Source of the DNA: a virus
Direction: 5' to 3' (one strand)
DNA length: 28,643 nt
IMG/VR virus record: IMGVR_UViG_3300042305_000506
Span: 1-28,643 of that record
The position numbers and the translations under genes were made by a program. Positions 9,571-10,895 of the stretch are shown piece after piece (within the stretch, counting starts at the first letter, position 1; each line of letters opens with the position of its first letter). The notes under the pieces are model-generated. The model ran no database searches and was not told where the DNA came from. It saw nothing but the letters and a program-made list of their open reading frames with translations.

Positions 9571-9639
9571 TTAAGCATTGGGATTTAATACCCATTCTTT
9601 AACTGTTACAATTCCATTGATGATTACATAAGATACCAT
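9571..9639 (-). CDS. Microprotein, 22 aa
   Basis: An ATG at 9637-9639 opens a 22-codon frame ending TAA at 9571-9573. The peptide begins MVSYVIINGIVTVKEW and ends NPNA. Its length alone would not justify a call. The cassette context does: a motif copy 25 bases upstream, the same A/T leader as its neighbours (TTAAAACTAAATATCATGG), and a terminator hairpin 5 bases after the stop. The peptide is beta-prone and uncharged apart from Lys/Glu in the middle. Function unknown. Confidence 0.5.
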   Translation of the reverse strand: MVSYVIINGIVTVKEWVLNPNA

Positions 9640-9664
9640 GATATTTAGTTTTAAGATTAATACT

Positions 9665-9679
9665 AGTGAAAAGCTGTAT
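9665..9679 (-). promoter_or_regulatory. Cassette motif copy upstream of the microprotein
   Basis: AGTGAAAAGCTGTAT, 14 of 15 matches to consensus, 25 bases before the ATG. Confidence 0.6.
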
Positions 9680-9682
9680 AAT

Positions 9683-9754
9683 AAAAAGATATAATGAGTG
9701 TTTCCGTGTTACCCTCCGCGAGAGGATCCCCCAGGATTCATTGCACATTATATC
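9683..9754 (-). ncRNA. Stem-closed small RNA cassette, 67 nt
   Basis: GATATAATG (9688-9696) pairs perfectly with CATTATATC (9746-9754), and on the minus strand TTTTT follows the helix, so the closing stem can double as a terminator. Inside are ATCC/GGAT and CCTC-TCGCG-GAGG hairpins in an unusually G/C-rich core for this genome. The cassette motif (9761-9775) ends only 6 bases before the RNA, where protein cassettes have 17-31 bases. A 72-codon frame crosses this unit and both adjacent motifs and is therefore unlikely to be a gene. Confidence 0.62.
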
Positions 9755-9760
9755 CATAAA

Positions 9761-9775
9761 AGTAAAAAGCTGTAT
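9761..9775 (-). promoter_or_regulatory. Cassette motif copy upstream of the 67-nt RNA
   Basis: AGTAAAAAGCTGTAT, exact consensus, 6 bases before the RNA's closing stem. This limits any transcription start to the motif's downstream edge. Confidence 0.62.
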
Positions 9776-9798: not shown

Positions 9799-10008
9799 TT
9801 ATAGCCTCCCTTTCCACTTATCCATTTTACCCTGTCTCCATTCAGTGTGTAATGTTCTTGCTATCATAAACATACCAAATCCAGCTAATGCTAGTATGAA
9901 TGCATTAGCATACTGATGGCTTATAGCAACATAATATGTTACTGATACAATACACATTATGGTACATGCATAGCATGCAACCATATTAAATAATCCAAAT
10001 ACTTTCAT
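9799..10008 (-). CDS. Small membrane protein with two transmembrane segments, 69 aa
   Basis: 69 residues. Two hydrophobic helices, about residues 5-28 (LFNMVACYACTIMCIVSVTY) and 34-50 (ANAFILALAGFGMFMIA), are joined by a short HQYA loop. A basic tail (WRQGKMDKWKGRL) should stay in the cytoplasm. No family recognised. Small two-helix phage proteins can be exclusion factors or holins, but this one is far from the lysis genes. Cassette unit with motif 26 bases upstream; a weak GAGGC/GCTTC hairpin with a T-rich tail follows the stop. Confidence 0.7.
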   Translation of the reverse strand: MKVFGLFNMVACYACTIMCIVSVTYYVAISHQYANAFILALAGFGMFMIARTLHTEWRQGKMDKWKGRL

Positions 10009-10267: not shown

Positions 10268-10576
10268 ATATAGAATGTTGTTGGTTGCTTGCCAGCTAGA
10301 TATATAGACATGGTTGCCAGTACCCCCTGTGCTTGTGTCTTATATACATACTATACTATACTAATCATAGTACTAAGTTGTAGCTAGATCATAGACTGTT
10401 AACAGATACTTTTACCTGTACAAAAAATATTATTTTCATACCCAAAAAGTTTTAATCTGTATAGATTTCATGGGGGGTACCACCAATTCTGGCTGAGGGT
10501 GGGGCGTTGTTATACATACCCCATCATACTCTCTTATATACTACATTCTCAGTAACCCACATTCTAATTAAAGTTA
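10268..10576. other. Divergent intergenic region, left part
   Basis: Separates the leftward and rightward gene sets. It contains a degenerate cassette motif (AGTACTAAGTTGTAG, 10369-10383, 11 of 15), a direct repeat GGTTGC..GCCAG (about 10281-10320), a small AATCT/AGATT hairpin (10455-10468) and a GGGG/CCCC hairpin at about 10501-10523. No convincing gene. This is the place to expect early promoters and possibly a replication origin, but no origin signature is visible. Confidence 0.4.
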
Positions 10577-10584
10577 TATCTTTG
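10577..10584 (+). promoter_or_regulatory. Bacteroidota-type -7 box for the 280-nt RNA
   Basis: TATCTTTG matches TAnnTTTG, the -7 element of the primary sigma factor of Bacteroidota. The structured RNA begins a few bases downstream. No clear -33 TTTG is seen. Confidence 0.55.
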
Positions 10585-10587
10585 TAG

Positions 10588-10865
10588 CATAACTCATTCG
10601 GCATCCCAGTAGAACTGCCCGCTCAGAGTGAGTCTTTTCCCCATCAATGGTAACATTGAGACCCTCTACTTCTCCGGTTGTAGAGCCCCTCCCTGTGGTG
10701 AGATAGCCATAGGCCAAGTTCCAGAACACATACCGTAAGATCTGTGTCCCAGCTCTGGACTTTTTGGATACTGGGAAAGCAGACTGAAGGTACCTAAGTT
10801 TGTATAACTAGTATCCGGCCCAGATAAGTTTCTCTGATCAAGAAGTACTGTCTGGGTTTTTTTTT
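10588..10865 (+). ncRNA. Large structured non-coding RNA, about 280 nt
   Basis: Flanked by a TAnnTTTG box and a T9 terminator, with no significant reading frame. Successive helices: ACTCA/TGAGT (10592-10633) enclosing CAGT/ACTG; TCAATG-GTAA-CATTGA with a GNRA tetraloop (10644-10659); CTCTAC/GTAGAG (10664-10685); CCTGTGG/CCATAGG (10692-10713); CCAGA/TCTGG (10721-10758) enclosing ACACA/TGTGT; GGATACT/AGTATCC (10766-10816). The terminal CCCAGA/TCTGGG stem (10819-10856) then precedes the T-tract. It lacks the hallmark boxes I would expect of RNase P, tmRNA, SRP or group I intron RNA. No family recognised. Confidence 0.72.
10819..10865 (+). terminator. Terminator of the 280-nt RNA
   Basis: CCCAGA pairs with TCTGGG over a 26-base loop holding a TTCT/AGAA helix, then nine T. 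Confidence 0.8.
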
Positions 10866-10895
10866 GTATCTTAGTAGTAAGCTATGTGTTTCTCA

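Follow-up and report, generated by a model that had tools for sequence, protein, structure and literature searches.

The window, that is the whole stretch of 28,643 nucleotides analysed here, is a 28.6-kb virus record encoding a terminase of phrog_6681, virion structural proteins and an endolysin. As its terminase shows ~25% identity to Crassvirales genomes, the window is a fragment of a crAss-like phage, from a lineage outside the phage collection searched. crAss-like phages rank among the most abundant viruses of Bacteroidota; the species genomes contained no relative of the window phage. The minus strand carries, at ~7.4-10.3 kb, an array of small genes, most of which are preceded by a copy of the motif TACAGCTTTTTACTA and end in a hairpin and a T-run. 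This motif has 15 matches in the window against 3.3 expected, a number reached by none of 100 shuffles. Among relatives, the array promoter varies (TACAGCTTTTTACTA, TTTCCACTCATAAT, CAGCTTTTATTGTATGAGAAA or AACATCTTTATACTTAT) but looks uniform within one phage (arrays of L016, L021, L031, L053 and L106), which suggests co-evolution with the polymerase reading it.

One slot of this array, between genes of 69 and 22 codons (p69 and p22), is occupied by a stem-closed, GC-rich RNA of 67 nt, hereafter RNA A, lying directly 3' of a copy of the array motif and followed by a T5 run and then by the next gene's own promoter (Table 1). The flanking motif copies, the perfectly paired ends of 9 bp and the T5 run reported by the initial annotation are all present. 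Its two GC-rich internal hairpins, in contrast, are not supported: the fold is a two-step stem made of P1 (9 bp), a CAA bulge and P2 (UG..UCC/GGA..CA), topped by a single apical hairpin (AUCCUCU/GGAGGGU), and the same succession of P1, bulge and P2 is predicted independently for the homologues. The 51-nt core has a GC content of 55%, compared to 33% for the window, and ranks in the top 0.25% of 50-mers. It is plausible, though the closing stem is AU-rich, that this stem would by itself act as terminator. No match above cut-off was found in Pfam for the small proteins neighbouring RNA A in the window.

Table 1. Features of the RNA A slot (window coordinates).
Feature	Position	Strand	Basis
RNA A cassette: 67-nt structured RNA (9754-9688), short 5' overhang, T5 at 3' end	9683..9757	-	fold, covariance-model matches of homologues, covariation
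P1 closing stem, 5' strand, GATATAATG	9746..9754	-	compensatory changes in homologues
P1 closing stem, 3' strand, CATTATATC	9688..9696	-	compensatory changes in homologues
3-nt bulge CAA (GAA in L136 type)	9741..9743	-	same position in all four types
P2 5' strand UGAAUCC, pairing with GGAAACA (9705-9699) except for an AA/AA internal loop	9734..9740	-	UG..UCC conserved
Conserved G-rich strand UGGGGGA	9727..9733	-	identical in window, L176, L136, L150 and truncated L168
Apical hairpin AUCCUCU-CGC-GGAGGGU, variable region	9711..9727	-	AUCCUCC..GGAGGAU in L176; two hairpins instead in L136 and L150 types
Conserved 3' segment ACGGAAACA (AC + P2 3' strand)	9699..9707	-	alignments
T5 run behind closing stem, presumed terminator	9683..9687	-	sequence
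Promoter-like motif of RNA A cassette, TACAGCTTTTTACTT	9760..9774	-	one mismatch to array motif
Promoter-like motif of next gene p22, independent of RNA A	9664..9678	-	array motif match
p22, downstream 22-aa gene, MVSYVIINGIVTVKEWVLNPNA, own terminator	9571..9639	-	conserved in relatives with and without RNA
p69, upstream 69-aa gene, left border of slot	9799..10008	-	present in 12 loci

Taken alone, the P1 stem is only moderately unusual. It is the sole 9-bp Watson-Crick stem with a span of 40-130 abutting a T5 run on both strands of the entire window, shuffled windows containing on average 0.075 such stems, and shuffling of the RNA A unit yields one in 9 out of 3000 cases. The minimum free energy is -20.9 to -21.3 kcal/mol (z -2.3 to -2.6). 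Stem and fold z are thus moderate by themselves, and it is the homologues that settle that RNA A exceeds chance. A chance inverted repeat in AT-rich intergenic DNA could account for a lone 9-bp AU-rich stem, which is weak evidence in itself as 3 of 40 shuffled windows have one with T5, but this reading is refuted by covariance-model matches with E-values of ~1e-11 to 1e-17 on sequences outside the model, together with compensatory changes and a core conserved across independent phages.

RNA A was not found by local BLAST in the first 80 related loci, and very few of the ~100 related records, which include many fragments, have it. A BLAST search of whole records gave a 25-nt match in a related record, with the same architecture behind another promoter (L131/L136 type), and a gapped pattern scan gave six contigs with an identical RNA A of ~100 nt (L136 type). 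A covariance model, R1, built from these two types (window and L136), was applied to the later pattern-scan matches, where it scored 87 bits (E 3.5e-17) on the L150 type, present in seven contigs, and 65 bits (E 5.7e-12) on L176, a fourth type. Among themselves, the L150-type contigs share 99.4-100% identity in their flanks, indicating a single phage species. RNA A is thus known from 15 contigs, the window among them, which represent four sequence types (one window, one L176, six L136 type and seven L150 type), so far all from Crassvirales. A 16th contig, L168, ends within its copy, which lies behind the promoter TTCTCCACTCATAAT; this truncated copy has a weak score (E 0.1-0.5) and is a probable member. 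Since TCCTGGGGGA was a required element of the pattern scans, joined in the final one by GnAATG, and UGGGGGA too was required in that final scan, the invariance of these letters is due in part to selection; the AC, GGA and ACAC of the 3' core are kept, though the final scan did not ask for them. Three other sets of matches were discarded: five contigs sharing the pattern TCCTGGGGG..ACGGAAACA, which are unrelated and GC-richer; matches to GATCCTCTCGCGGAGG in 12 contigs, where similarity ends beyond ~20 nt; and L111:8612-8693, another stem-closed, ORF-less cassette, which first reached an E-value of 0.02 but lacks the core and is unmatched by the better model R2.

Each of the four types, when folded independently, shows the order P1, CAA or GAA bulge, P2, G-rich strand and hairpin(s). 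In an alignment fitted to the model, 5 of the 18 pairs have changes on both sides and 88.9% of cells are paired, whereas sliding the 3' partner by 1-3 columns leaves 29-54% of cells paired and no double change. This alignment leans to the model, but the P1 double changes between window and L136 are already visible in a plain MAFFT alignment. Four double changes fall in P1 (G-C/A-U, U-A/C-G, G-C/A-U and A-U/U-A) and one in P2, where a U-A pair becomes A-U between the L136 and L150 types. The initial annotation had named beforehand, as counter-evidence, homologues whose stem strands vary without compensation; the L176, L136 and L150 types instead keep P1 and P2 via double changes. Some parts vary: P1 of the L150 type is well paired in its inner part only, the P2 internal loops (AA/AA and AA/AG in the window and L176 types) are paired in the other two types, and the apical region is interchangeable, with one hairpin (window, L176) or two (L136, L150). 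The retained core comprises the 3-nt bulge (CAA/GAA), P2 (UGnnUCC/GGAnnCA), UGGGGGA and the AC ahead of GGA. The window unit is very probably a real small-RNA gene, and the first member of a structured RNA family of crAss-like phages that had not been described before.

RNA A is conserved far above its surroundings. Window and L176 are identical at 64 of 67 aligned positions, whereas the adjoining p69 protein, whose homologue also lies 5' of RNA A in L176, is 42% identical; the L136 and L138 copies are 100% identical, whereas their aligned flanks reach only 79-94%, their upstream genes differ and their downstream proteins have diverged. An identity of ~95% between phages with far-diverged neighbour genes argues for a conserved partner. 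The gene 3' of RNA A also changes, being p22 in the window and other proteins in L136, L138 and L176. In L136 and L138, RNA A stands among different genes behind the promoter TACTTCTTCTTACTTG, and each array copy has the local promoter type. Conversely, the p69-p22 slot contains in sister phages either RNA A (window), RNA B (L015), RNA C (L017/L101 and L096) or RNA D (L097), the last three being unrelated to RNA A, or is empty (L099 and L100). The seam ATTATACAGCTTTTCACTAG at the p22 motif is identical in L015, L096, L101 and in the RNA-less L099. As ATTATACAGCTTTT is present at both seams of the RNA A unit, recombination between motif copies would gain or lose the whole unit cleanly.

Two readings that tie RNA A to its neighbours or to a protein can be confronted with this context. 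RNA A could act in cis, as 5' leader or attenuator of p22 or as terminator of p69, since it lies between both genes and ends in a stem and T5. This is very improbable: p69 has its own hairpin/T-rich stretch 5' of the RNA promoter, p22 has its own promoter 3' of the RNA, and the empty slots of L099 and L100, which keep p69-p22, together with the changed neighbours in L136, L138 and L176, rule out a leader or terminator role. The unit could alternatively be a peptide gene of 10-13 codons (MNPGGSSRGG, MFPGGARPAVATA or MYPGGARPVVATA) starting at an AUG in the bulge/P2 region; the in-frame AUG and first codons (xPGG) are kept and a 22-aa gene adjoins. However, the L176 frame lacks the window's stop and continues beyond the terminator, the differences between types are non-synonymous, one of them (UUU to UAU) matching a stem partner outside the ORF, and conservation extends both 5' of the AUG and 3' of the stop. 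The AUG moreover lies ~18 nt behind the motif, at the bulge/P2 border and without the usual A-rich leader. Neither the ten-codon frame, lying within RNA A, nor a 52-aa ATG frame from 9757, which is open yet crosses the terminator and the next promoter, is conserved as protein, and a peptide gene was rejected as equally improbable. Several promoter types, varied neighbours and a swapped or empty slot most likely reflect a trans-acting, exchangeable gene rather than a leader, a terminator or a peptide gene.

The L150/L152 type differs in context. There, RNA A is found downstream of a C-rich element, in the corresponding region of a phage whose terminase is ~41% identical to that of gut crAssphages (Suoliviridae). 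It lies in an ORF-less stretch of ~360 nt, lacks an evident promoter or T-run in its immediate surroundings, and may there be a domain of a longer RNA. The C-rich element (CCCCACC..GGTGGTACCCCCC) is conserved upstream of the array in the window (10464-10510) and at the equivalent place in L015, L031, L168 and L152; it is weaker in L021 and L053 and occurs also in phages without RNA A.

RNA A corresponds to no known family, as initially proposed. In Rfam 15, the window, L150 and L168 had no match at gathering score, the tRNA match of L176 lying elsewhere; the best sub-threshold matches were MicX for the window RNA A (16 bits vs 75 for gathering) and one of 9.9 bits vs 127 for the L136 copy. Nor is it a normal tRNA: it is roughly tRNA-sized with paired ends, like tRNA or tmRNA, but has no cloverleaf, and ARAGORN found no tRNA gene in the window. 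It does not resemble a type III (ToxI-like) antitoxin, being a single unit at one window site without tandem repeats. No relative was found in 50,697 phage records, a strict pattern for RNA A matched none of 84,980 species genomes, and five complete Crassvirales genomes, including Cellulophaga phage phi14:2, gave no RNA A either; a literature search of incomplete coverage gave no description of such RNA genes in crAss-like phages. By eye, the L136 and L150 types resemble 16S helix 24 (GGGGAGCAA..GUAGUCC), but mimicry of 16S/23S rRNA was rejected, local alignments scoring no better than shuffles.

Other RNA-like elements were observed. At 10565-10870 (+), the window has an ORF-less element of ~300 nt with a strong terminator end (CCCAGATAAG..CTGTCTGGG-T9) and a fold z of -4.1; highly conserved in L017 and L113, absent from L015 and without Rfam match, it is probably another, larger structured RNA. 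RNA C (L101:5232-5362, L096:5252-5384, L081:1552-1682 on the minus strand and L111:7525-7625) shows two loops, the conserved UUAUUGCUUU and UUAGCA, and the stems carrying them vary in sequence among copies but stay paired (GGUUCC/GGACC, UCUCC/GGAGA, UCUC/GAGA; GGA/UCC, GAG/CUC). The two RNA D copies (L097:5232-5334 and L106:4394-4491) are 82% identical over 98 nt, in different slots and with different promoter types. Further ORF-less array units, several with closing stems of 9-13 bp followed by T-runs, are likely more RNA genes (L111:8619-8689, L138:11012-11112 on the minus strand, L103:7290-7413, L106:4516-4830 and L111:10149-10330). Finally, the minus strand of L152 shows, between small ORFs, two hammerhead-like ribozymes (CUGAUGAG..CGAAAC..GUC) near 6885-6838 and 7213-7170, the former matching Rfam Hammerhead_3 with 27 bits, below gathering.

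At the level of sequence, RNA A is a discrete cassette with a common fold kept by compensation and a conserved core, found in several slots and phages. Judging from the same data, it is very probably a real, trans-acting structured RNA gene. Its organisation as a single promoter/RNA/terminator unit, its presence or absence in sister phages and a conservation far above that of its neighbours point to an accessory gene with a conserved partner in trans. This partner could be another RNA, the G-rich strand UCCUGGGGGA pairing as a trans antisense with a C-rich phage or host target. UGGGGGA is indeed found in every type, unpaired or weakly paired in window and L176, and CCCCC followed by A or G occurs at just four places on the same window strand, one of them (10476) inside the conserved early-region element. 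Such an antisense role is nevertheless unlikely, as the full complement TCCCCCA is present in the window only as antisense of RNA A itself, the C-rich element exists in relatives without RNA A too, and the P2 helix and bulge, needless for a plain seed, are also conserved. The fact that conservation covers bulge, helix and G-rich strand, rather than one unpaired seed, favours a protein partner over an mRNA. A phage-internal RNA cofactor, of the phage polymerase, replication or packaging, would agree with the restriction of RNA A so far to Crassvirales contigs, in a region of small genes with their own promoters. It is even less likely than the antisense role, because RNA A is patchy, being missing from most related records and from same-slot sisters, and because essential machinery is not expected to be replaced by other RNAs. 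Phi29 pRNA, likewise phage-encoded, has paired 5' and 3' ends and a small bulge in its closing helix; RNA A shares these traits but differs by its lack of Rfam match, its patchiness and its place in a small-gene array, and the swap pattern does not support a packaging role.

The best explanation, with a probability of roughly 0.6, is that RNA A is a self-contained small-RNA gene of a new Crassvirales family, acting in trans by offering its core to a host or host-defence protein. The phage-type array promoter would drive a structured RNA of ~70 nt, ended by the closing AU stem and T-run. The phage's own polymerase would transcribe it at an early stage of infection; early genes of crAss-like phages are read by the virion polymerase (PMC10136315), which makes early expression of RNA A likely. 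The RNA would then act in trans as an RNA decoy: its two-step stem would display the bulge/P2/UGGGGGA core to a protein belonging to the host or to one of its defence systems, and could titrate or inhibit that protein. This decoy or counter-defence mechanism is proposed only tentatively, having been reached by excluding other readings and by comparing RNA A with the exchangeable accessory genes of phages. The parallel with RNA anti-CRISPRs (Racrs), phage-encoded RNAs that mimic CRISPR repeats (PMC10651486), would make counter-defence or host takeover its most likely use. Racrs resemble RNA A in being small and stand-alone, and work in trans by mimicry against a defence ribonucleoprotein of the host; RNA A folds into a long two-step stem with a bulge. 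Phage regulatory sRNAs (reviewed in PMC12197685) are also short phage transcripts without ORF that probably act in trans, but the examples considered from that review come mainly from temperate phages and work by base-pairing or as antisense RNAs, whereas RNA A has a conserved structured core and belongs to a crAss-like small-gene array.

A wider and still more tentative possibility is that Crassvirales small-gene arrays are cartridge racks: their promoter repeats would double as start sites and recombination seams, and the interchangeable, mutually unrelated structured RNAs that they carry (A, B, C, D and others) could form an RNA-based arsenal for counter-defence or host takeover, parallel to that of the small proteins. 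The empty-slot phages L099 and L100 are ready natural knock-outs, and identifying the partner of RNA A would open a new phage-host interaction.
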